This document shows, piece after piece, positions 36,780 through 51,220 of a stretch of 64,000 bases of DNA. The notes beneath the pieces were generated by a model. The model did no database searches. It had not been told where the DNA came from and worked only from the letters and a program-made list of their open reading frames with translations. The translations under genes and the position numbers were made by a program. Each line of letters begins with the position of its first letter. Positions within the stretch are counted from its first letter, which is position 1. This DNA is from Enorma burkinafasonensis (GTDB taxonomy: Bacteria > Actinomycetota > Coriobacteriia > Coriobacteriales > Coriobacteriaceae). The stretch is from NCBI RefSeq assembly GCF_902150035.1, contig NZ_LR597506.1:1-64000 (forward strand), written 5' to 3'.

Positions 36780-39700
36780 TGGATCATTCCCGCGTCCGCG
36801 GGGAGCACGGATGGCAGAGCACCGCCACGAGGTGCGCCTCGGGATCATCCCCCCATGCGCGGGGAGCACCTCGGTGCGACATTCAACCAGCTCACGAACG
36901 GGGGATCATCCCCGCATGCGCGGGGAGCACGTGCCCTTGTTGAGCTCCACGATACCCAAGTGGGGATCATCCCCGCATGCGCGGGGAGCACACTCCATCC
37001 GTTCTCCTTTCGACGCCCACCATGGGATCTTCCCCGCATGCGCGGGGAGCACGGGGCACGGACGAGATAGTGCAGGCGCTGCCGGGATCATCCCCGCATG
37101 CGCGGGGAGCACTCTAGATCTCGGAGCGGCGCGGCGTGTCGACGGGGATCATCCCCGCGTGCGCGGAGAGCACAGCATCATGCGGCAGACCTCAAGCGAC
37201 GTGACGGGATCATCCCCGCATGCGCGGGGAGCACGCGCCATGTAGGATTCGAACCTACGACCTTAAGGGATCATCCCCGCATGCGCGGGGAGCACTCGGA
37301 GTACGTTATAGGAGTACCTTCTTGCTCGGGATCATCCCCGCATGCGCGGGGAGCACTAGCTAAGCACAGTAATTCCGATATACGGCTAGGGATCATCCCC
37401 GCATGCGCGGGGAGCACCGGATCAGCAGGTCCTGCGGGGAGGTGCCGGCGGGATCATCCCCGCATGCGCGGGGAGCACAACGGCCCGATGCTCAAATACT
37501 ACTGGAACCGGGGATCATCCCCGCATGCGCGGGGAGCACTGCGCCTCGAACATGCTTCCGACGATCATCCAGGGATCATCCCCGCATGCGCGGGGAGCAC
37601 GCACGGCCCCGTTTCTGCCGCTGTTCTGGGCAGGGATCATCCCCGCATGCGCGGGGAGCACCTGTCGGACGGCCAGGCAGTCCTTATCGCATCGGGATCA
37701 TCCCCGCATGCGCGGGGAGCACGTGAGCTGCAGGGCGATCATGGACAGTATGGTGGGATCATCCCCGCATGCGCGGGGAGCACTTTTTTGACTGCGAGCG
37801 CTTGGCGTGCTCGGTGGGATCATCCCCGCATGCGCGGGGAGCACTGGCGCTGTTCGAGTCGGGGCCCGCCTGCCACGGGATCATCCCCGCATGCGCGGGG
37901 AGCACAGCGTCGAGGTGCCGGGGACCGTGCCGGGGCCGGGATCATCCCCGCATGCGCGGGGAGCACGCATCCGCATCGGCAAGATAGTCCTTGCCGTCGG
38001 GATCATCCCCGCATGCGCGGGGAGCACGCGCTCAGGACCGCGCAGGAGGCGGCGCTGCCGGGATCATCCCCGCATGCGCGGGGAGCACAGCTTCGAGTTT
38101 GGGTACTGCTCCTACTCCGAGGGATCATCCCCGCATGCGCGGGGAGCACTCGCTATTGACAGTGGCGTGCACCTCGACGCCGGGATCATCCCCGCATGCG
38201 CGGGGAGCACTGGTGGGGGCCGCAGGACGCCTGATCGACGCCGGGATCATCCCCGCATGCGCGGGGAGCACTACGAGCAGCTCGTGGGCGGCATCGACAC
38301 CCTGGGATCATCCCCGCATGCGCGGGGAGCACTCCTACTACTTCGAGGCGTCGAGCTACATCCCGGGATCATCCCCGCATGCGCGGGGAGCACCCCGTGG
38401 CCGGGCACACGATTTCCTGAACCATGGGATCATCCCCGCATGCGCGGGGAGCACATGATCTCGTCGTACATGTGGGTACCGGGGCCGGGATCATCCCCGC
38501 ATGCGCGGGGAGCACTTATCGGTGAGTACGGATATGTCCGCGTCCTCGGGATCATCCCCGCATGCGCGGGGAGCACTTGTCGTCGCCCCGGTAGTACACA
38601 ACAACGTGGGGATCATCCCCGCATGCGCGGGGAGCACTTGACGTTCGTCCCGGCAGGCGTCCCGCCTATGGGATCATCCCCGCATGCGCGGGGAGCACCT
38701 TCTCCTCCTCTGGAACTGCCTGAACTCGGTGGGATCATCCCCGCATGCGCGGGGAGCACGTGACCGAGGTGAGGTGCGGGAGGACGTCCTCGGGATCATC
38801 CCCGCATGCGCGGGGAGCACCCATGTGGCCCTCCTTACCTGAACTTGCCCGCGGGATCATCCCCGCATGCGCGGGGAGCACGCGGCGCTGCTCTCCGCCA
38901 ACCTCATGAGCGAGGGATCATCCCCGCATGCGCGGGGAGCACTTGCTGACGAACTGCGAGCCCGCGCTGACGGCGGGATCATCCCCGCATGCGCGGGGAG
39001 CACCGCAGGCCGCGCATGTTCTCGGCCAGGGCGCTGGGATCATCCCCGCATGCGCGGGGAGCACAATTCGCTCTGACTGAGCACCGTGACCACACCGGGA
39101 TCATCCCCGCATGCGCGGGGAGCACACCTCCAGCCGGTAGCCCGCCGGTACGTCCATGGGATCATCCCCGCATGCGCGGGGAGCACTTGCTGGCGAACTG
39201 CGAGGCAGCGTTGGCGGCGGGATCATCCCCGCATGCGCGGGGAGCACTTGCTCTCGCTGATGTATGCAACCTCGGCGTTGGGATCATCCCCGCATGCGCG
39301 GGGAGCACTGCAGTCGGTCATCACGGCGGGGCAGAACGTCGGGATCATCCCCGCATGCGCGGGGAGCACTTATCGGTCAGGGCGGACATGTCCGCGTCCT
39401 CGGGATCATCCCCGCATGCGCGGGGAGCACCTGAACTTGCCCGCGTTGAGGGCGTTCTGGATGGGATCATCCCCGCATGCGCGGGGAGCACGGCCTCTTT
39501 GGAGATGTGGAAGTATTCGACGAGGGATCATCCCCGCATGCGCGGGGAGCACGGCCTCTTTGGAGATGTGGAAGTATTCGACGAGGGATCATCCCCGCAT
39601 GCGCGGGGAGCACTAGTTTCGCATATTATGCACGCTGTTCTGCATAGGATCATCCCCGCATGCGCGGGGAGCACGGATTCCGCCAGCTCACCACTCAGGA

Positions 39701-40955
39701 GACGAAGGGATCATCCCCGCATGCGCGGGGAGCACCGATGAAAGCCAGCAGCAAGATCGCCGATATGGGGATCATCCCCGCATGCGCGGGGAGCACCTCA
39801 TCGTCTCGGGCAACAGCATGAATCGCCTGGGATCATCCCCGCATGCGCGGGGAGCACTACGAGCAGCTCGTGGGCGGCATCGACACTCTGGGATCATCCC
39901 CGCATGCGCGGGGAGCACTGGTCGGTCAGGGCGGACATGTCCACGTCCCCGGGATCATCCCCGCATGCGCGGGGAGCACGAGATCGCCTCCGACGAGGAG
40001 GCCGTGGCGCTGGGATCATCCCCGCATGCGCGGGGAGCACCAGCTCGACAAGGTCGGGGACTTCCTCAACGAGGGATCATCCCCGCATGCGCGGGGAGCA
40101 CTGTCGATGCGGACCTGGTTCGCCGTGACCATGGGGATCATCCCCGCATGCGCGGGGAGCACGCAATCGACGGCGAGCAGGTCGGCGCCATGCCGGGATC
40201 ATCCCCGCATGCGCGGGGAGCACTGCTGAATGGCCGGTAGCGCGAGCGACTGCACGGGATCATCCCCGCATGCGCGGGGAGCACCCGACCTCCAGGGATA
40301 CGTCCACCGAGTACTCGGGATCATCCCCGCATGCGCGGGGAGCACGGGCTCGCGAACGCGTCGACCGACATCGTGAGGGGATCATCCCCGCATGCGCGGG
40401 GAGCACTCGAGATCTCCCAGGGTCTCGGCCGTGGACTCGGGATCATCCCCGCATGCGCGGGGAGCACTGATGCGCACGGGCAACCCCGAGGACGGCACGG
40501 GGATCATCCCCGCATGCGCGGGGAGCACTTGTAAGTGGATGTGACGCTCACCCAAAAGACGGGATCATCCCCGCATGCGCGGGGAGCACACGATGTCGAT
40601 CCGGTCGTATGAGGACGCCCCGGGATCATCCCCGCATGCGCGGGGAGCACCAGACGCTCGAGATCGAGATCAACCACATCCCGGGATCATCCCCGCATGC
40701 GCGGGGAGCACGCAGGGGGCGACGAGTGATGAAGCTCTCCGACGGGATCATCCCCGCATGCGCGGGGAGCACGCTACGTTGGTCCACGAGCTGGTGGTGA
40801 CGATGGGATCATCCCCGCATGCGCGGGGAGCACTACGAGCAGCTCGTGGGCGGCATCGACACTTTGGGATCATCCCCGCATGCGCGGGGAGCACAGCTTG
40901 GTTCCCATGGTGTCGCTCCTCCCCCTGGGATCATCCCCGCATGCGCGGGGAGCAC
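36780..40955 (-). CRISPR. Type I-E CRISPR array, 69 repeats
   Basis: Sixty-nine 29-base repeats with 68 spacers, almost all 32 bases (61-base period; one 31-base spacer near 37053). The crRNA strand is minus. The repeat core CCCCGCGCATGCGGGG forms a 6-bp stem with a GCAT loop, and the last eight bases (ATGATCCC) are the crRNA 5' handle. The leader and newest spacers are at the 40955 end next to cas2. Degenerate repeats at 36780 (three changes), 36841, 37024 and 37145 mark the old end. Two adjacent spacers (39492 and 39553) are identical, three are near-identical (38272, 39858, 40834), and others form related pairs. The spacer at 37235-37266 matches a tRNA 3' half. Confidence 0.98.
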
Positions 40956-41041: not shown

Positions 41042-41407
41042 TTATGGGTGAGAACGATATTTCCTTGCCTTGTGATGTTTCGAAGCGCTACTCCAGCCTG
41101 TCGGAAGTGAACCCACCAGCGTTGCATCATCTGTCCCCGCCGGCCGCTTGATTAGTTTTAGTCCCTCGTTATCAACCGGCGTCCAGTCGGGTTGAAACAC
41201 TTCGAAGTCCAAATGCTGTTCATTACGTGCCCCATACACCATAATTGCCCTGCCAGATTTGAGAAACGAGCAGACGCGTAGCCAGAGCCTTTCCCTCACG
41301 CGTGCCGATAATCGCCCAACAAATACTCCCGGAGCGATTTCTAAAAGCCATCTAGTCAAATCTCCCCGAGCGCCTGGAGGACACGCCGTTAGAACCATAA
41401 CAACCAT
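41042..41407 (-). CDS. cas2: CRISPR-associated Cas2, type I-E
   Basis: A 121-residue Cas2e (CasB/ygbF-type) protein with the ferredoxin-like N-terminus MVVMVLTACPPGARGDLTRWLLEI and the GVFVGRLSARVRERLW segment typical of the type I-E subgroup. It dimerises between two Cas1 dimers in the integrase. No exonuclease domain is fused to it, in contrast with Cas2-DEDDh fusions known from some type I-E systems; a separate DEDDh gene lies at the head of this operon. Confidence 0.93.
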   Translation of the reverse strand: MVVMVLTACPPGARGDLTRWLLEIAPGVFVGRLSARVRERLWLRVCSFLKSGRAIMVYGARNEQHLDFEVFQPDWTPVDNEGLKLIKRPAGTDDATLVGSLPTGWSSASKHHKARKYRSHP

Positions 41408-41413
41408 TCTTAT

Positions 41414-42406
41414 TCATCCTTCCGGTCCGGCGAGATACAGTTTTCCAGCGGCAACTTCTCCTGTTTTTTCATCCCAAAGCTTAACTTCATCGTCCAAGGA
41501 CTCTTCTACGCTGGATTCTGTCGAAAACAGAGCATCGATATCTTCAACCATACGCTTCATGATCGATAGATCATAAAGAGCATCCCGCATGTTCTTTCGG
41601 GTAGCAGAACCGATGTCATTTGGATGCGACGCGGCAGTTTTGAATGCCACCGGTATAGACAGTTCTGCCTTATATAGGTCTGCTATATCGTATACAAACG
41701 AACGCTCATGACCGGTATGAACAAAACCAAGGCCCGGAGAGCAACCTAGAGCAACGATAACGGCATGTGTTATTCCATATAAGCATGTATGAGCCGCAGA
41801 TAGGGCCTTATTGATCTCTGAGCCAGCATCGAAATCATCGGGATCGAATTCCCTCCGCTTCCAGTCAACACCCGTTTCCCTCGACCAGTACCGATATACC
41901 CTGCGGATACGTGCTCCCTCTCGACCTCGCAGCTGCTGCATAGTCAGAGAGCTCACATCCTCTTCGGGGAATCGCATCTGATACATTTTCCTGGCCACCG
42001 CGAGCCGCATTCTCGTATTGGAAACAAGTTTCGCCTGGCTGATGAGAAGCCGACTTGAGTGTGTCAGCGGGCGCCCGGATGCGTACATTCTCACCCCGCG
42101 CTCGCCAACCCAAATCACACTGGCGCCGTTCTCCCCTATCGTCGCCATGGCTTTGTGGGAGATGCTCGTCCCGGGACCCAACATCAAAACTCCCAGCGTT
42201 GCCACCGGTATTCGAATTGTCCCCTCGTCATCGGTAATCGTGATGGCGTTCTCCGCTTGATTGACAACGCATCGCTCGAAGTAAACAAACGAGATGCGCT
42301 CGTCGGCGCGGACCAAATCGGATAAGACAGGCGGAACGGCCCCCGGCGTCGTCCCGCCCTCAGAACCCATATTCTTTTCCACCTCGGAGGTGCAGTCGTC
42401 AGTCAT
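41414..42406 (-). CDS. cas1: CRISPR integrase Cas1, type I-E
   Basis: A 330-residue Cas1 integrase. The metal-site His and Asp lie in HTGHERSFVYDIADLYKAE, with the catalytic Glu upstream in the helical domain. The ATG at 42406 is chosen because it overlaps the cas6e stop by eight bases (ATGACTGA); an in-frame ATG 24 bases upstream would lie within cas6e. It contains a 30-residue acidic, low-complexity N-terminal extension (residues 1-35) before the first beta strand. Codon use is AT-richer than in the Cascade genes. Confidence 0.94.
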   Translation of the reverse strand: MTDDCTSEVEKNMGSEGGTTPGAVPPVLSDLVRADERISFVYFERCVVNQAENAITITDDEGTIRIPVATLGVLMLGPGTSISHKAMATIGENGASVIWVGERGVRMYASGRPLTHSSRLLISQAKLVSNTRMRLAVARKMYQMRFPEEDVSSLTMQQLRGREGARIRRVYRYWSRETGVDWKRREFDPDDFDAGSEINKALSAAHTCLYGITHAVIVALGCSPGLGFVHTGHERSFVYDIADLYKAELSIPVAFKTAASHPNDIGSATRKNMRDALYDLSIMKRMVEDIDALFSTESSVEESLDDEVKLWDEKTGEVAAGKLYLAGPEG

Positions 42407-43100
42407 CGCCGAGCTCCCGAAGCGGAGCAACAGTCATAAGGCCGCATCCGAAGCCGCGGGCACGGCCCAGGCCGAAGCCGAGTGTGCGTCGAAATGAATC
42501 AGCGTCGATAACCTCAAGGACGCCATCGTATTGTGCAGTCGCAAGCGTGACCACGCCGCCCTGTCTCTTGAACCGCTCTCGACGACGATGAGACACGACC
42601 AGCCGCTCGAATCCTTCCTCCGTCTTGGCAACGCGAAATCCGTGAGCCTCGGAGCGATCCATGAGCCACTCGCGCTGCTGCGCCTCGGTAACGTGGCCTT
42701 GGAGCGTACCGACGACCCCTTCACGCTCCCTTCTCCCCTTGTCGACAAGAACCTTGCGCACCGGGTTCGCCTTAAGCCTGAACTGCCAAAGCTGCCCTTC
42801 AGATACCTGATTAAGTACAGGGCCGTAGTCCTTGGTCACCCAGGTGAGCGATGCCGCCGAAACCGCCCGATCACAAATATGGGCGAAGTCTGGCTTTTCG
42901 GGGCTCACGACGTAAAGCCATACTTCGCGCTCGTTTCCTGGAACCTCGTCCAAACGCCAGAGAATTCTTCCCTCTGCACCCTCGCGCACGGCATCGGGCG
43001 CAAATGCCCCCTCAATTGCCGCGTGAACCTTGTAGGGCGAGCTGACAAGCGCAATGGCATCCATGCACTCCAGGTTTAGAGGAACTCTTGATAGATACAT
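42399..43100 (-). CDS. cas6e: crRNA endonuclease Cas6e
   Basis: A 233-residue Cas6e that cleaves pre-crRNA at the base of the repeat hairpin and stays bound as part of Cascade. The N-terminal MYLSRVPL strand and the C-terminal glycine-rich loop GLGRARGFGCGLM are diagnostic. Catalytic Tyr/His candidates are H26 and tyrosines in the first domain. RBS GTGAGGTGA precedes the ATG, eight bases after cas5e. Confidence 0.94.
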   Translation of the reverse strand: MYLSRVPLNLECMDAIALVSSPYKVHAAIEGAFAPDAVREGAEGRILWRLDEVPGNEREVWLYVVSPEKPDFAHICDRAVSAASLTWVTKDYGPVLNQVSEGQLWQFRLKANPVRKVLVDKGRREREGVVGTLQGHVTEAQQREWLMDRSEAHGFRVAKTEEGFERLVVSHRRRERFKRQGGVVTLATAQYDGVLEVIDADSFRRTLGFGLGRARGFGCGLMTVAPLRELGDD

Positions 43101-43108
43101 AAGTCACC

Positions 43109-43852
43109 TCACTCCATCCATCCCAAAGGATCGTGAACGAGCACCTCTTTCAAATTCGGCTCCAAGACGGATGCCCCGCTACTGCTGGCGTCATCAAAAC
43201 CGACGATGTCGGGATTAGGCACCCGCAGCCGAGTGACCGGCCTGCACGCGTAACGTCTTCCCGCGGGGCTGTACGTAAGCGGATAATCCGCCCAGCTCTC
43301 ACAAGCTTCCCCATCACGTGCGTCAGCAACCATCTCTAGCACGAGCACATCCGGGTGCCGGGACTTATATCGCGCGGAAGCTCTCCAGGGCTCCTCGACA
43401 AGCACTTTCCGAACGTCTCGCGCCCCTTCGTCGATGCCCAAACAGAGCGGCATATCCGCCGGACAGGACCTTCTGCCCAGATAGAGCGGCCTGTGCGGCA
43501 GTCTCAAAGCTGACTCCACCTTCTCGAGCGTCTTCTTAGGCCCTCCTAGGGCAACGAGAAAGCAGGCGTCGGCAAGGTAGTAACGGTTCGAGAGCGGCAT
43601 GGGCTTGCCGCCATTCATGGGACGCTCCGTCTGGAAGTCGCGCATGAGCTGACCAGGCTGTTCAACGCGAACGGCAAGCTCGAGCTGCGCCAAGTCGCCC
43701 ACCGGGTCTTCGCGTGTTCGGCCGAGCGCGGAGGCGATAAGCCCTACGATCCCGCTTTTAGTCGGCTCGCGCCTTGTGGTTCTTCTCGCATAGCGCGACG
43801 AGTCCCCCCAAGACTGCATGGGCCCCGCAAGGCGAATGAGAAGAACGGCCAT
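43109..43852 (-). CDS. cas5e: Cascade subunit Cas5e
   Basis: A 247-residue RAMP protein that holds the 5' handle of the crRNA. The N-terminal RLAGPMQSWG motif is the Cas5e signature, followed by RRTTREPTKSGIVGLIASALG. GAGGAG of its RBS lies in the end of cas7e, two bases separating stop and start. Confidence 0.94.
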   Translation of the reverse strand: MAVLLIRLAGPMQSWGDSSRYARRTTRREPTKSGIVGLIASALGRTREDPVGDLAQLELAVRVEQPGQLMRDFQTERPMNGGKPMPLSNRYYLADACFLVALGGPKKTLEKVESALRLPHRPLYLGRRSCPADMPLCLGIDEGARDVRKVLVEEPWRASARYKSRHPDVLVLEMVADARDGEACESWADYPLTYSPAGRRYACRPVTRLRVPNPDIVGFDDASSSGASVLEPNLKEVLVHDPLGWME

Positions 43853-43854
43853 GA

Positions 43855-44988
43855 TTACTCCTCGGACGCAAGGGCCGATTCGATTGCCTCACGCACGGCA
43901 GCCACGAGAGCGTCGAAAGACACGCCCTCCCCGAAATGCTCAAGAGCTGCCGCATCCACGCCATACGAGACATGCCAGCTCTTCGTTGCCGAGTGCGCGA
44001 AGGCACCTTCGACATCCTTGGCACATGCCGCAAGGCGCTCTGCGGCGACCTGCGTGATGGAGCGGTCACGCTCGGCATACGCGGGACGCTCGAACGCCGT
44101 AGCCAGGTTGATTGGCTGGTCGTCACGCAGCGAGACCGCCACCACATTGGGAAACGTGCGGTTGGCAAAGGTATTCTGCTTGCCGGTAGGCATGGACTTG
44201 ACAAACGCCTCGACGAAGGCCGCCACTCCGCGCGCCGTCGCCTCGGCGCTCTCCAGCTGCTCCATGAGCGCGTCGACGTTCACGGTCGCATAGCGGTAGA
44301 GCGTTGAGGAGTTGAAGCTTACGGTACCCAGCATCCCGGCACCAGCGTTGTCATCTGCCGCGCAGTCATCCACGGCGGTGAAGTAGTCGTACTCCTGGGA
44401 GATCTCGTTGACCGAGATGGCGTGCGCGACCTGTGAGCACGCATCGACGTTGAAGTCGGACGCATCGGCGAGCATGCGACCGAACAGGGCGATGTCAACC
44501 GCCTGGATTCCCTTGAACGCCTTCTGGACGTCCTTCTTCGACTTGCTGTCAGGCTTCTTGGGATCGACTCCCCCGTCTGCCCAGGAAATGGCGATGTCCG
44601 CAAGATCGTCGAGTTCGCGATTGGCGATAAAGACGAGGTAGCCCGTAGCAAGCGTCCCCTCGTCGGAACCCTTCCTGTCGGTCTCGGACGACTTGATTCC
44701 CGTGGCGTCCAGTACCGCCTTAGCAAAATCGACGGACCGCTCGGCAAGATCTTCGCGCTTGGCAGCGATCCGCTCCGCAATCAGCGGCACAACGAACTTC
44801 GTGCGCACGCCCAGCTGGCCTTCCGGCAGGAAGTCCGAGAACATCTCGCGCATGGCACGCTTCCACGCCTGGCTGGAGACGCGGGCCCTAAGTGCACCGC
44901 CAAACATGGCAGTCTTAGGGCTCCCCGTATCGTCGCGGTTGATGTTGCTGGGCGGAACGCTCTGAAGGGCATAAAGATCAAGGTACAT
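43855..44988 (-). CDS. cas7e: Cascade backbone subunit Cas7e
   Basis: A 377-residue Cas7e (CasC/Cse4), the six-copy backbone of Cascade. MYLDLYALQSVPPSNINRDDTGSPKT and GGALRARVSSQAWKRAMR are highly conserved in the family. The ATG at 44988 follows AGGAGGCACC; the frame extends upstream without homology. It is ten bases after cse2. Confidence 0.95.
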   Translation of the reverse strand: MYLDLYALQSVPPSNINRDDTGSPKTAMFGGALRARVSSQAWKRAMREMFSDFLPEGQLGVRTKFVVPLIAERIAAKREDLAERSVDFAKAVLDATGIKSSETDRKGSDEGTLATGYLVFIANRELDDLADIAISWADGGVDPKKPDSKSKKDVQKAFKGIQAVDIALFGRMLADASDFNVDACSQVAHAISVNEISQEYDYFTAVDDCAADDNAGAGMLGTVSFNSSTLYRYATVNVDALMEQLESAEATARGVAAFVEAFVKSMPTGKQNTFANRTFPNVVAVSLRDDQPINLATAFERPAYAERDRSITQVAAERLAACAKDVEGAFAHSATKSWHVSYGVDAAALEHFGEGVSFDALVAAVREAIESALASEE

Positions 44989-44998
44989 GAGGTGCCTC

Positions 44999-45655
44999 CT
45001 AGTTCTTCTCATCAGTCGCCGCGCCGGCGGCATCGCCTGTTGTCGTCTCGTCGGATGCAGTCGTAAAGTAATCCCGTCCCCAGCGCATAAACACGTCACC
45101 ACGGGCACTCGGGAACTGCAAGAGAAAGAGGTCGCGGGTGAGCTGGTAGTAGTCCACGCGGACATCCTTGCCCTTCATGAGCAGGATGAGGGCATGCATG
45201 TAGTGCTCGATGCCCTCCATGTCCCGCACGCCCTCCAGTGCGGCCATCCGGCGACGGACCCCCTTCGCCTTGTCCTTGTCGTACTCGATGCACCGGCATG
45301 ACCACCCAAAGGAGCGCCGCTGGGCACGCGCGCCTTCAGGGGAGCCCGTAATGGCCATGGGGACGTCCCTTGACTGCTGGTGATAGGCGTAGAGCCTCAG
45401 AGCGGTCGTTATGGCACGAAGGGCCTTCCTCTCGTCCGCCTCGGACAGGTTCAGGTCGAGAAGCCCCTCGAAGAGGTTCTCCCCCACGGAGACCCAAGAC
45501 GCACCGCCGGGCATCCCCAGCTGGCGCAGGCGCGCAAGGGAGGCTCGTGCATCCGCGGCGTCAGAGCCCTTTCCTACATAGGCGCGCTGCAGCCGAGCGA
45601 TCTTCTTCTGCGCGAACAAGGCTATCTCGTTCGCACGGTCGTAAATCGACGACAT
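44999..45655 (-). CDS. casB: Cascade small subunit Cse2
   Basis: A 218-residue Cse2 (CasB) helical small subunit, present as two copies in Cascade and stabilising the R-loop. Visible are the alternating basic helices (ALFAQKKIARLQRAY, ASLARLRQLG) and the family's RLRQL and FALQLRDL-like LTRDLFLLQF segment. RBS GGAAGGAAGT precedes the ATG. The C-terminal tail is Ala/Thr/Gly-rich. Confidence 0.92.
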   Translation of the reverse strand: MSSIYDRANEIALFAQKKIARLQRAYVGKGSDAADARASLARLRQLGMPGGASWVSVGENLFEGLLDLNLSEADERKALRAITTALRLYAYHQQSRDVPMAITGSPEGARAQRRSFGWSCRCIEYDKDKAKGVRRRMAALEGVRDMEGIEHYMHALILLMKGKDVRVDYYQLTRDLFLLQFPSARGDVFMRWGRDYFTTASDETTTGDAAGAATDEKN

Positions 45656-45670
45656 ATACTTCCTCCCTTC

Positions 45671-47299
45671 CTAGAACAGTGCCTTGACGAGGTCACGCTC
45701 AAACCAAGCGAGCGCCTGACCAACGGAGACGTCATCATGTTCCGAGAAGCACGAGACGTGCCGACGAGACACGTACGCATTCGCCAGCCTTCGAAGCACA
45801 GAACGAGTCTCCTTGCGCCACGCGAGGCAATACTCGTCCACCCCCTCATCGGGAAACTCGGCAATCCGCGACCGATACAGAGCGTCGAGAGCATAATAAG
45901 CTCCCTCGCGGACGTCGTTCTTCGTGGCAACGTCGGGGAACTTCTTATTCTTTCCACGACGATCGCCTTGGGCCTGCTCAACGTGCCGGATAAACTTAAC
46001 GAGAGCATCTACTGCCCTGTCGGTACGTTCAATGACATCGAGCAATCTGAGAACTGCCTCCGAATCCTTACGCAACAAGCCAGCTCGCAAGTCAACTGAG
46101 TCCGTCATAGCATCGTAAATGACGCTATTGTTGGGCCCGTAGCTGACTCCTTGACAAACAATGCGAACATTGAGACGCCAGTCATCAACGCTCTGAACGT
46201 CCTGAAGCTCCGACATCCAGCGAATGACGCCAGGACGAAGCTTTCCTCCATCTACAAGCGCGAGCAAGCTGGGAAGACCACGCCAAAGAGCGAAAGCCGT
46301 ATCTGGAACCACGGGCATGAGCGGTACCGTGGCGGTACCCAGCTTCTTCTGCTGCCGCTCGCTCTCACGCCAGCAGGTCATCATCTCAAAGCGTTGCTTA
46401 TTCGCTGGAATCAGAATGTCTCCGTAGCTGATGATGACGCCGCGGACGGAAGAGCCATCCGAGCCTGGAACCAGACGAATCCTTCGGCTCTGCCATGTGA
46501 GCAGGTCAATGGGCCCGGTCGGCTCTCGTCGGCATGTATCCGTCGGAGATGCCTCACGCTCCCAAGGAGCATAATCGTTTGGAACGATAACGGAAGCGTT
46601 GTTCAGATACAGTACGAAATTCAGAAGCAGGGTCTCGAAGAGGCTCTGCCCCTCTAGGTAGATTCCGCCCAGCGCACCGCACCATCCCGTGCCCAACGCC
46701 CCCTTGGGCGCTCGCGCCTTGCCATCCACCACGGAAGTGTTTCCCTCGACAGGACTTTTAATCCCAGCTATATCGTACGCCTGCACAACAATAAGATAAC
46801 GAGCTGCGAGATCAAACGGCAGCGAATCCAGGTGCTCCGGGCTCCTCATGGAAAAGAGAAACTTGCCCTTTTCTGGATTGGGGACGTCCAGCATGAACTC
46901 GCAGACGGGGTCAAACTCTTTCTCCCCCATGTAGGCAAGGTTGGGAACTTGATAGAATGGACGCTCGTTGTCAAAGAGGTCGAACTCGTGGGGATAGTCG
47001 GCAAGGTACTCATCAATTTGGTCCGGCCCAAAACACCCTTGGGACCGAAGTTTTTCCCAACGCCCCTTCTTCCCCTTCTCGCCCGCATCCTCGAGATCGG
47101 CATTGATGCAATAGACAAGCGCAAGCAAGAGACGCAGGAGGGCAATTCCCTCTCCGGGAATCTCGCCTGAGAGACGCCGAATCTGATGGGCGCCGGCCAA
47201 AGCCTCTCGTATCGAGACAACATCGGCAGTGCCGTCGAGCCGCTCGACAGGAATCCAGGGCTCGAATCTTAGATCGTAATGTGGTTTCTGTTGGGCCAT
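45671..47299 (-). CDS. casA: Cascade large subunit Cse1
   Basis: A 542-residue Cse1 (CasA) that reads the PAM and recruits Cas3. FNLLxEPWIPV is seen here as YDLRFEPWIPVERLDG near the start, with the family's SIREALAGAHQIRRLSG and the glycine-rich GALGTGWCGALGGIY loop. The ATG at 47299 follows AGGAGGAAGAA. The 160-base gap to cas3 upstream contains a CRISPR-repeat-like hairpin in its 5' leader. Confidence 0.94.
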   Translation of the reverse strand: MAQQKPHYDLRFEPWIPVERLDGTADVVSIREALAGAHQIRRLSGEIPGEGIALLRLLLALVYCINADLEDAGEKGKKGRWEKLRSQGCFGPDQIDEYLADYPHEFDLFDNERPFYQVPNLAYMGEKEFDPVCEFMLDVPNPEKGKFLFSMRSPEHLDSLPFDLAARYLIVVQAYDIAGIKSPVEGNTSVVDGKARAPKGALGTGWCGALGGIYLEGQSLFETLLLNFVLYLNNASVIVPNDYAPWEREASPTDTCRREPTGPIDLLTWQSRRIRLVPGSDGSSVRGVIISYGDILIPANKQRFEMMTCWRESERQQKKLGTATVPLMPVVPDTAFALWRGLPSLLALVDGGKLRPGVIRWMSELQDVQSVDDWRLNVRIVCQGVSYGPNNSVIYDAMTDSVDLRAGLLRKDSEAVLRLLDVIERTDRAVDALVKFIRHVEQAQGDRRGKNKKFPDVATKNDVREGAYYALDALYRSRIAEFPDEGVDEYCLAWRKETRSVLRRLANAYVSRRHVSCFSEHDDVSVGQALAWFERDLVKALF

Positions 47300-47336
47300 T
47301 TCTTCCTCCTTTCGTTTGCCGCAATAATAAAGTGGG

Positions 47337-47365
47337 TACTGGAACCCCACATTTGTGGGGAACAA
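47337..47365 (-). other. CRISPR-repeat-like hairpin between cas3 and cse1
   Basis: On the minus strand TTGTTCCCCAC AAAT GTGGGG aligns with positions 1-21 of the repeat (about 16 of the first 23 positions identical). Both fold as a 6-bp stem with a 4-base loop, and the one stem change (G-C to A-T) is paired on both sides. The 8-base handle is not conserved. It is 38 bases before the cse1 ATG. A Cas6e processing site or regulatory RNA is possible. Confidence 0.45.
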
Positions 47366-47459: not shown

Positions 47460-50400
47460 TTAAGTTTCTCGACGAACGGTCGATAACCCTTCTTCTCTGG
47501 TATAACGCACGCGCTGATCGAGCACCGTCGCCTCGAGCACTCCCGGCTCAATCTCAACCCCTTCCATGGCAAGCACCAGCCTCCCCGCCAGAACGGGAAC
47601 ATCCTGCCACGCAGCAACCCAACGCTCGCAGCCATCCTCAAGCTCACCAATGAGCCTGTCGAGCTGCTGTGGTCGACATAGAGAGAGCGGCAGCCTCACC
47701 GCGCACTGAGCGAGCACCATGGACAGAGCCCGATCCGGCTCATATGCAGTAGGGACCTCTTGTCCCCGCTCGACACCGCTCCCTTCGTCCCCCACCCAAG
47801 GAAGCAGGTGAACATGGCCGTCTCTTCTTCTAACAAGAAGAACCTCGACGGTCTCCTGCGTATCTCTGACCGCACGCTGCCCCGCATCTTCGCTCATCTT
47901 CGAATTCGAGCTGTCCTCAACTGCCCGGGCGAAGAGCCCAGTAAGTGTTTTCTCGTTCTCCGCAAGATACTTCGCCGACGGAAGGAGGAAATCTCCAGCA
48001 CGACACTTCTTGTCTTGAACCGCGTTTATCCGTTCTTCACAAGCATCGAGATACGATGAGAGCCAACCCTCTGGAATCCTCCCCTCAATCGTCGAGGAAT
48101 ACGCCAAGCGCACCAGCCTAGCGATGTCTTGCGGCAGGCAAAGCCTAGCGCTCGCATCCATGTCGCCAAGCCCGCTTACCGCAAGTGCCTCCATGAGAGA
48201 TGCCTTGTCATAGACCTTTGAGACCCCGGGCGCGAATACTGGGCCTTCAGGACCGATTTCCTCAATGCCACGGAGAAAACAGCGAGCCTTACGCAAGCGG
48301 ACTGGACGGTCCTTTTCGCCCTCGCCGCGAACATGACGATGGGCCCTTCCCAAGCGCTGCATCAAAAGGTCGATGGGCGCAATGTCGGTGACGAGAAGGT
48401 CGAAGTCTATGTCGAGCGACTGCTCGAGCACCTGTGTTCCCACCACGATCATTCGCTCAGGACGCTTACCGTTGGACCGCGTCGCATCGGGGCCAAGCAG
48501 GTTGCGGAGCACGGTCTCGTTTTCCATGCGGTCTAAGTCCATGAAGCGAGCATGGGCCAGCATAACCTCGCCGCTATCAAAGCAACCCCGCAAGGCGCGA
48601 TACGCCATCTGTGCGCGCGTTACCGTATCGCATACGACCCCCGCGATACCGCCCTCGCTCAGCTTCTCCTTCATAAGGGCAACGAGAGCATCAGGCTCAT
48701 CTTGCAGAATCGATACGTCGATCTGGGCACTTCGCGATGTCGCCGGACAATCAAGTCTCTCAATGCCCCGCTCGGAAGCAATCGTGATGAGTGGATAGGA
48801 TTCATCTACGGGCGTCTGTACCTCCCTCAGCTTTCTTCCCCTTGACCTTGCCCTCTCTTTTCGAGTGAGCTTTCGAGAGGAGGTGGTGGGCATGTCACCG
48901 AAGCCGGCTGTAGATACGGGGCAGGCCCCCTGGGCAGCACGCCCTTCTCGATAGGCATCGATCAGACTGTCTCGTACCGACGTCGGCAGCGTGGCGGACA
49001 GAAGGATAACGGGGCAGCCCCATGCCGCGAGCCACTCCAGCACACGCAACAGATATTGCTGCATGTAGCTGTCGTAGGCATGACACTCGTCGACGATAAC
49101 CACCTTGCCGGCCAAGGCGAGCTGCCTCAGCGAGAGGTGCCGCATGTCGAGCGCACCCATGAGCACTTGGTCGACCGTGCAAACAACGAAATTGGCCAGC
49201 ATGCCCTTCTTGCGACCCTGCATCCAGTCGGACACCACAACACGATCGTCTCTTGGGGTTTCTTCGTCTAGGTCAACACCCATAGAGCTCAGAGAACGAT
49301 ATGTGCGGGAAGAACGAACGATTCCCTGATACTCTTCGTTAAGCTGCGCCTTTCCATGTGCGAGATAGATGCTCGAGGAGTCATGCGCAGCAAGGTGATC
49401 GAGCCATCGGCGGACACGACCGAACATGGCGTCTGTCGTCGCCATGGTGGGAAGAGCAACGCACACACCCCCACAGCCAAACTGCGCTCCAACGATTTCC
49501 GCCGCTGCAAGCGCCGCCTCGGTCTTCCCCTCGCCCATAGGAGCTTCGATAACCATAAGGGAAGGCTCCGTCATCTGCGCAGCGGCTTCCATCACCGCCT
49601 TCTGGACAGAACGTGGCGCACAGCCCTCGGACAGGCCGAAACGCTCGCAAAACCAACTGTCGGACACAACGGGCTTCTCACCGCTCCAGCTGGATGGAAG
49701 GTCGAGCTCGAGCCATGCTCGATCTGCACGCGCATCAAGCGACGCGCCGTCTCTCTTCATCATGAAACTGCGCGTCGATCCCTCTCCGGGTATCAGCGGG
49801 ACCAACGGGAATAGATCTTGGTTGCTCGCAATCCAGTCCGCCATGATGAGAAGGCCGCAGGCGACTGAATCAGTCGACGCGTCCCATGCGCAGAGCGCAA
49901 GCGAGGCCATATCCTCATTCGACAACCCCGCTTCATGGAAAGCATAGTCAAGGAGCTCTCGTTGGACACCGCGCCAGCCCTTGCCCACATCGTCCGGCGC
50001 GTCGCCCATTGCCGTCTTCAGGATAAAGCCCTTATGGACCCGCTCTTTATCCGGAACGTTCCCATGATGAGCCCCCACTATGGAACCCCAAGCATCAGCC
50101 TGATTAGAAGACCAGCCGAACATGTCCTGGAGATAACGAGTAACGAGCACCTGACCGGCAATAGGATGAGTAGGATCCCTAGTCGTAGAGAGGCTAGCCT
50201 CGATGAACAGACCAGCCTTCTCCGGCTTCCATGCGAGGTTCACCCGCTCCCCGCCCCGTCCACGGCCGCACGGCTTAGCCTGGAAAATGGGAGTGGCCTT
50301 ACCTATGTCATGAGCGCCGGCAAGGAAAACAAGAGCCTTGCGAGCGAGCACCTCACTCCCATGGCAATGGCGTGCAAATAGGTTCTTTACGTTTTTCGAA

Positions 50401-50576
50401 ACCCATCCATCCCAAAGTCTAACCATGGTGCGAGCTGTATCGCTCAGGTGAATATGGAGAGGCAGCCAAAGAGAATCGTCCTCGGGGTCAGTCTTCGCCC
50501 AGAGAGCGCGAGCTTGTCTAGAAAGCTCATCAATTCCGTTCGCCGGCATTCCGACTCGAGTCGTGAGCTCACTCAT
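47460..50576 (-). CDS. cas3: CRISPR nuclease-helicase Cas3
   Basis: A 1038-residue fused HD nuclease/SF2 helicase that shreds the target after Cascade binding. The HD domain has HIHLSDTARTM (41-51) and GAHDIGK (H89, D90). The helicase has EAPMGEGKTEAAL, DECHAYD (a DECH box), LLSATLPTSV and a C-terminal helicase half with QSLDIDFDLLVTDIAPIDLLMQRLGRAHRH. The ATG at 50576 overlaps the stop of the exonuclease gene before it (ATGA). The E. coli gene has an independent promoter; here it is second in the operon. Confidence 0.95.
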   Translation of the reverse strand: MSELTTRVGMPANGIDELSRQARALWAKTDPEDDSLWLPLHIHLSDTARTMVRLWDGWVSKNVKNLFARHCHGSEVLARKALVFLAGAHDIGKATPIFQAKPCGRGRGGERVNLAWKPEKAGLFIEASLSTTRDPTHPIAGQVLVTRYLQDMFGWSSNQADAWGSIVGAHHGNVPDKERVHKGFILKTAMGDAPDDVGKGWRGVQRELLDYAFHEAGLSNEDMASLALCAWDASTDSVACGLLIMADWIASNQDLFPLVPLIPGEGSTRSFMMKRDGASLDARADRAWLELDLPSSWSGEKPVVSDSWFCERFGLSEGCAPRSVQKAVMEAAAQMTEPSLMVIEAPMGEGKTEAALAAAEIVGAQFGCGGVCVALPTMATTDAMFGRVRRWLDHLAAHDSSSIYLAHGKAQLNEEYQGIVRSSRTYRSLSSMGVDLDEETPRDDRVVVSDWMQGRKKGMLANFVVCTVDQVLMGALDMRHLSLRQLALAGKVVIVDECHAYDSYMQQYLLRVLEWLAAWGCPVILLSATLPTSVRDSLIDAYREGRAAQGACPVSTAGFGDMPTTSSRKLTRKERARSRGRKLREVQTPVDESYPLITIASERGIERLDCPATSRSAQIDVSILQDEPDALVALMKEKLSEGGIAGVVCDTVTRAQMAYRALRGCFDSGEVMLAHARFMDLDRMENETVLRNLLGPDATRSNGKRPERMIVVGTQVLEQSLDIDFDLLVTDIAPIDLLMQRLGRAHRHVRGEGEKDRPVRLRKARCFLRGIEEIGPEGPVFAPGVSKVYDKASLMEALAVSGLGDMDASARLCLPQDIARLVRLAYSSTIEGRIPEGWLSSYLDACEERINAVQDKKCRAGDFLLPSAKYLAENEKTLTGLFARAVEDSSNSKMSEDAGQRAVRDTQETVEVLLVRRRDGHVHLLPWVGDEGSGVERGQEVPTAYEPDRALSMVLAQCAVRLPLSLCRPQQLDRLIGELEDGCERWVAAWQDVPVLAGRLVLAMEGVEIEPGVLEATVLDQRVRYTREEGLSTVRRET

Positions 50577-51220
50577 CTTTCCCGCCTCTCCCGTGTCTTC
50601 ATTCGAGAATAACGTGCCACGACGTCCAGGTAGGCTGTAGACGACGGGAATCCGCATCTAGCGGGATCTTTCCCAATCATGGCGCAGAAGCACTCTAGCG
50701 TCGCTCGCGCATCCTCGAGCGCATCATGGGCTCGAAAGGAGACGCCGTAGAATTGTGCACAATAGGCTAGGGAGACCCAGGCGTATCTCTGTCGGTCGGC
50801 ATCCCAGCGCCCCACAACGGGGGCAAACTCGCGCATCACATCAAAAACTGCAGCGTTTCCGAAAGAAATGTCTGCCGCCTGGAGGAACGAGAGATCGAAA
50901 GGAGCGTTGTAACCAACAATGAGGCCAGCGCCCTCGAAAGCCCTCTCAATTTCCGGTTTCAACGAAGCCAACAAGGGACAGCTTTCCACCATTGAAGGAG
51001 AGATGCCATGCACACGCTGCGCAGAAGGCCAACTCGAGCGGCGTTCGGGCCGCACATAGCGAGATAGCATGGGCTCTCCGTCGCCGCGAACGAGGGCGAC
51101 CTGAAGCACTTCATCAGCACACGGGTCGAAACCCGTAGTCTCAATATCCAGACACACGACCTTACGATGCGAAAGCTCCCTCAGAGCCGTGATATCCCCC
51201 GTTTTGTACCACAGCCTCAT
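50573..51220 (-). CDS. DEDDh 3'-5' exonuclease at the head of the cas operon
   Basis: A 215-residue DnaQ-fold exonuclease: Exo I DIETTG (D25, E27), Exo II YNAPFD (D109) and Exo III HDALED (H165, D170), so all four acidic ligands and the general-base histidine are present. It is not the Pol III epsilon pattern in length or context. The stop overlaps the cas3 ATG, so it is translationally coupled to cas3. DEDDh domains fused to Cas2, or recruited host DnaQ-type exonucleases, trim prespacers in some type I-E systems; here the domain is a stand-alone gene. Role in trimming is inferred from position. RBS GGGGACGCG precedes the ATG. Confidence 0.9.
   Translation of the reverse strand: MRLWYKTGDITALRELSHRKVVCLDIETTGFDPCADEVLQVALVRGDGEPMLSRYVRPERRSSWPSAQRVHGISPSMVESCPLLASLKPEIERAFEGAGLIVGYNAPFDLSFLQAADISFGNAAVFDVMREFAPVVGRWDADRQRYAWVSLAYCAQFYGVSFRAHDALEDARATLECFCAMIGKDPARCGFPSSTAYLDVVARYSRMKTRERRER

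Follow-up and report, generated by a model that had tools for sequence, protein, structure and literature searches.

The closest counterparts of the locus described here are the type I-E CRISPR-Cas systems of Escherichia coli and Vibrio cholerae, in which primed adaptation occurs, and which share with it the same full set of cas genes, a 29-nt repeat and 32-nt spacers. The V. cholerae system captures one base of the PAM and has a target-strand PAM of RTT (PMC7677007). The last repeat base varies in arrays related to the one considered here (mostly C, some T), which fits the capture of one PAM base and resembles the situation in V. cholerae, although PAM use at this locus, in contrast to E. coli and V. 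cholerae, is something we infer. Phage escape through seed or PAM changes followed by the acquisition of new spacers is also known, and the present case resembles it in its PAM-proximal changes and in repeated acquisition against one phage group. It differs in the many intervening spacers, a mismatch class that is tolerated, same-site families that are not limited to the seed and a phage series that has not been seen. The type I-E arrays of other Coriobacteriales (genomes G002, G007, G024, G169, G196 and G197) provide a nearer parallel, in that two to four variants of a single protospacer position are present per array. The differences in these families are mostly spread along the spacer, whereas both lie in the seed here; spacers 37 and 60 of G197 also have seed-located changes, at positions 3 and 6. 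A literature search yielded no close precedent for a natural series of spacer re-acquisitions.

The window (the whole stretch of 64,000 nucleotides of Enorma burkinafasonensis DNA analysed) contains a minus-strand type I-E array (36780..40955) in which 68 spacers are set between 69 repeats of 29 nt; on the crRNA strand, the repeat reads GTGCTCCCCGCGCATGCGGGGATGATCCC. To the right, beside minus-strand cas2 and cas1, lies the leader, and the leftmost repeat is degenerate, with four mismatches. The left end is, thus, the old end, with age running from old to new from left to right, and the spacers are numbered from S1, nearest the leader, to S68, the oldest. The gene set is complete and lies entirely on the minus strand: cas2e (41042..41407; TIGR01873), cas1e (41414..42430; TIGR03638), cas6e (42399..43100; TIGR01907), cas5e (43109..43852; TIGR01868), cas7e (43855..45165; TIGR01869), cse2/cas11 (44999..45655; TIGR02548), cse1/cas8e (45671..47365; TIGR02547) and cas3 (47460..50657; TIGR01587 for the helicase core and TIGR01596 for the HD domain). 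All these genes match type I-E or Cas3 models, and the real start of cas7e is probably further inside the open reading frame, given the overlap with cse2. The 29-nt repeat is of the type I-E kind, the spacers are 32 nt long and the leader adjoins cas1/cas2. Directly upstream of cas3 is an open reading frame for a DnaQ-like DEDDh exonuclease (215 aa; 50573-51220, minus strand). DnaQ-like exonucleases can trim prespacers during type I-E adaptation, and this gene may be an accessory gene of the system.

Several other spacers of the array have features of their own. S61 (37235-37266, minus strand), TTAAGGTCGTAGGTTCGAATCCTACATGGCGC, resembles the 3' half of a tRNA gene; it has no match at up to three mismatches in the host genome outside the array, and its source is perhaps a phage-borne tRNA. 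The adjacent spacers S23 and S24 (39492-39584) are identical, and adjacent duplicates are also present in several related arrays. S35 (38821-38852) and S25 (39431-39462) have an identical 14-base overlap, located where a reading frame ends, which places them at staggered positions in the same phage or in related phages.

Three spacers, all on the minus strand, are directed against a single site, referred to here as site A: S44, the oldest version (38272..38303; crRNA 5' AGGGT), S18, the middle version (39858..39889; AGAGT), and S2, the newest (40834..40865; AAAGT). The crRNA-strand sequence of S44 is AGGGTGTCGATGCCGCCCACGAGCTGCTCGTA, and S18 and S2 are identical to it apart from the 5' end, the only variable bases being crRNA positions 3 and 2. 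The 30-31 of 32 bases shared are far above chance, and the spacer sequences of the array confirm both the near-identity and the age order claimed in an earlier note on this DNA. Between S44 and S18 lie 25 spacers, and between S18 and S2 there are 15. The neighbouring spacers differ, so the three are independent acquisitions rather than block duplications, and a scan at up to three mismatches found site A nowhere in the host genome outside the array. The same note had drawn attention to the addition of one seed change with each newer spacer. This order is true of the sequences, but it is weak evidence of a stepwise process, because any three haplotypes defined by two biallelic sites necessarily fall on a path, and the intermediate has a one-in-three chance of also being the middle one in time.

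The target was recognized through a degenerate scan of IMG/VR, which returned 26 contigs with the site-A motif, all encoding YEQLVGGIDTLF. We take the gene concerned to be that of a siphophage tape measure protein (TMP), recognized by its conserved motifs, no family search being involved. Another 80 loci came from a TMP search, and the adjoining crRNA-side bases were AAN in all 48 distinct site-A sequences (AAC in 20). The search pattern behind these 48 sequences itself demanded a Phe codon, but the unfiltered hits, the 26 IMG/VR contigs, all carry this Phe codon too. AAC or AAT is found in only half of these 48 homologous sites. The AA of the PAM is preserved because the codon after site A is Phe (TTY), so that in the homologous sites the coding sequence itself keeps these two bases intact. 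S44, S18 and S2 are each preceded by a repeat ending in C, which makes CTG, CTG and TTG the most likely Leu codons of the phages. Both changes would then be synonymous, as had been proposed, with Thr ACC becoming ACT and Leu CTG becoming TTG, the Leu synonymy depending on the captured PAM base. The sampling of one phage site three times and the type I-E assignment are likewise supported.

The closest phage, IMGVR_UViG_3300031993_001145, carries ACG where the spacers imply ACC or ACT and matches at every other base, and the codon at crRNA position 3 varies among the 48 natural sites (ACG 19, ACC 15, ACT 10, ACA 4). The exact variants of S44, S18 and S2 were not found in IMG/VR scans, GTDB contigs, order- and class-level genomes or GenBank phages, an absence that is weak evidence. 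One scan of the GTDB contigs was empty and a broader one gave a single match, in Olsenella, at 4-5 mismatches. Matches to the first 41 spacers among GenBank phages (S24, being identical to S23, was omitted) were weak, with E values of 2 or worse, and none was to site A. Degenerate IMG/VR scans for site B (described below), S23 and S25 gave no matches.

Near-identity at site A does not mean that two phages belong to one lineage. In a comparison sample of 66 unique TMP cores, the cores of pairs with one or two site-A differences were about 0.70 identical in the median (range 0.55-0.92); close likeness at the motif is, thus, normal between phages whose TMP cores agree at only some 70%. In nucleotide conservation, site A ranks ninth among 219 windows.

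The array contains two further same-site families, both on the minus strand. Site B is represented by S40, the oldest version (38516..38547), S26 (39370..39401), which differs from S40 at four bases, none of them in crRNA positions 1-14, and S17 (39919..39950), which differs from S40 at eight and adjoins S18. These three spacers differ from one another by four, four and eight bases, with amino-acid changes. Site B lies about 180 residues downstream of site A in the TMP, at the motif GLGN-EDADMSALTDK (also given as GLGN-EDADxSxLTDK), a placement made by motif likeness rather than by a near-exact DNA match. Family C consists of S33, the older version (38943..38974), and S29 (39187..39218), with five differences. 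The differences in families B and C (4-8) are spread over the whole spacer. If adjacent spacers share one phage, the position of S17 beside S18 implies that the phage behind S18 had already become very different from that of S44 and S40. Natural pairs with 7-9 site-B differences seldom show two or fewer at site A (4 of 49). The likeness at site A is thus higher than would be expected, unless S17 and S18 come from different phages.

Same-site resampling is common in related arrays. A survey covering 876 spacers in 22 arrays or array fragments with related type I-E repeats, the array of this window among them, gave 13 same-site variant families in a list compiled by hand, three in this window and 10 in related arrays. 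There was no seed enrichment of variable positions over these 13 families: 14 of 50 fell in crRNA positions 1-8, against 12.5 expected (p=0.36), and 12 of 48, against 12.0, when site A was left out. In families with two or fewer variable sites, the seed is favoured (6/10, p=0.02), but this lean is not significant without site A (4/8, p=0.11) or without the unpaired position 6 (4/10, p=0.16). The probability that at least one family with two or more variable sites would have every one of them within positions 1-8 is 0.22. Two related arrays showed further forms of repetition. In the G197 array L205, spacers 44, 78, 91 and 95 of 104 are four variants of one spacer that contains a small inverted repeat (of the CCCGGCAAGCCGGG type), which may represent the hairpin of a phage terminator. 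In the G196 array L207, spacers 62-65 are repeated exactly in tandem as 66-69, so block duplication within arrays does occur.

In the model suggested by the earlier note, the series would record the escape of one phage lineage, in which a silent seed change at position 3 defeated S44, S18 was taken, a change at position 2 followed, and S2 was taken. Coding constraint would, in such a model, leave silent codon changes as the sole means of escape at site A. The location of both changes in the seed (p of about 0.045 among 12 synonymous sites), their silence, their monotonic order and the seed lean of the low-divergence families are all consistent with this model, as is the rarity of the derived codons in GC-rich homologues. 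ACT and TTG each make up about 3% of their own codons in ten GC-rich TMPs and are absent at site A in 21 GC-rich contigs, suggesting recent C>T mutations. However, the order alone carries the one-in-three chance given above, the low-divergence lean loses its significance when site A is left out, the 13 families lack seed enrichment, and the copies are separated by 25 and 15 spacers, a span over which site B changes by 4-8 bases. The mismatches themselves also argue against escape. Each newer target would present dT opposite rG of the older crRNA, at position 3 in the first step and position 2 in the second. Mismatches of the rG-dT class are reported to be generally tolerated by the type I-E Cascade of E. 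coli, rG-dT at position 2 not being among the pairs named (PMC12871591), and the variant targets would therefore be expected to be poor escape mutants, although the Cascade of this host may differ from that of E. coli. Stepwise escape of a single lineage is, thus, an unlikely origin for the series and is left unsupported by the core identity of about 70%, the whole-spacer variation in families B and C, the lack of seed enrichment and the tolerated mismatches.

A seed location could also arise without a single lineage or stepwise mutation, if seed variants were standing in the phage population and immunity acted as a filter, phages matched by a spacer being destroyed while seed-variant phages infected the host and donated the next spacer. 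Natural phages do vary at crRNA position 3, as the codon counts for the 48 sites indicate, but S26 was acquired despite being identical to S40 over crRNA positions 1-14, and rG-dT mismatches should protect a phage poorly, making such filtering somewhat less likely still. Duplication of one spacer inside the array, with later mutation of the copies, is very improbable. The identical neighbours S23 and S24 and the four-spacer block repeated in a related array are precedents for duplication, but the copies of the site-A spacer lie 15 and 25 spacers apart among unrelated neighbours, and array duplication was rejected as the origin of S44, S18 and S2 because these neighbours differ. Nearly all the intervening repeats are identical, implying slow mutation of the array, and yet both changes would have had to fall on silent positions of the phage reading frame.

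The best account of S44, S18 and S2 is probably that related, non-identical siphophages were sampled repeatedly at one conserved TMP site. An ordinary type I-E system would have taken the homologous TMP protospacer three times, independently. The DNA would stay alike because the protein sequence is nearly fixed at YEQLVGGIDTLF, the Phe codon after the site would always provide the two A bases of the PAM, and synonymous codon differences from phage to phage would yield near-identical spacers. The sources were probably different co-circulating phages, contributing spacers at different times, and older near-matching spacers may have primed the later acquisitions. Several observations run against resampling: both changes are in the seed, the codons ACT and TTG are rare, none of the 30 natural phage pairs with two differences had both within positions 1-8, only 4 of 49 natural pairs combined the site-B and site-A distances seen here, and the scans did not recover the source phages themselves.

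If true, the stepwise reading would make the array a direct record, from nature, of silent escape in which the host took the same site again at each step; that the array is such a natural record of type I-E evasion only by silent seed mutations, at a protein-constrained site, is unlikely. With a protein-constrained motif and a PAM enforced by a codon, spacers can reach across many phages, and such sites are therefore natural recurrent targets. Recurrent conserved targets can, in turn, mimic an escape series, and same-site families from the same array, together with natural phage pairs, provide the controls by which resampling can be told from escape.
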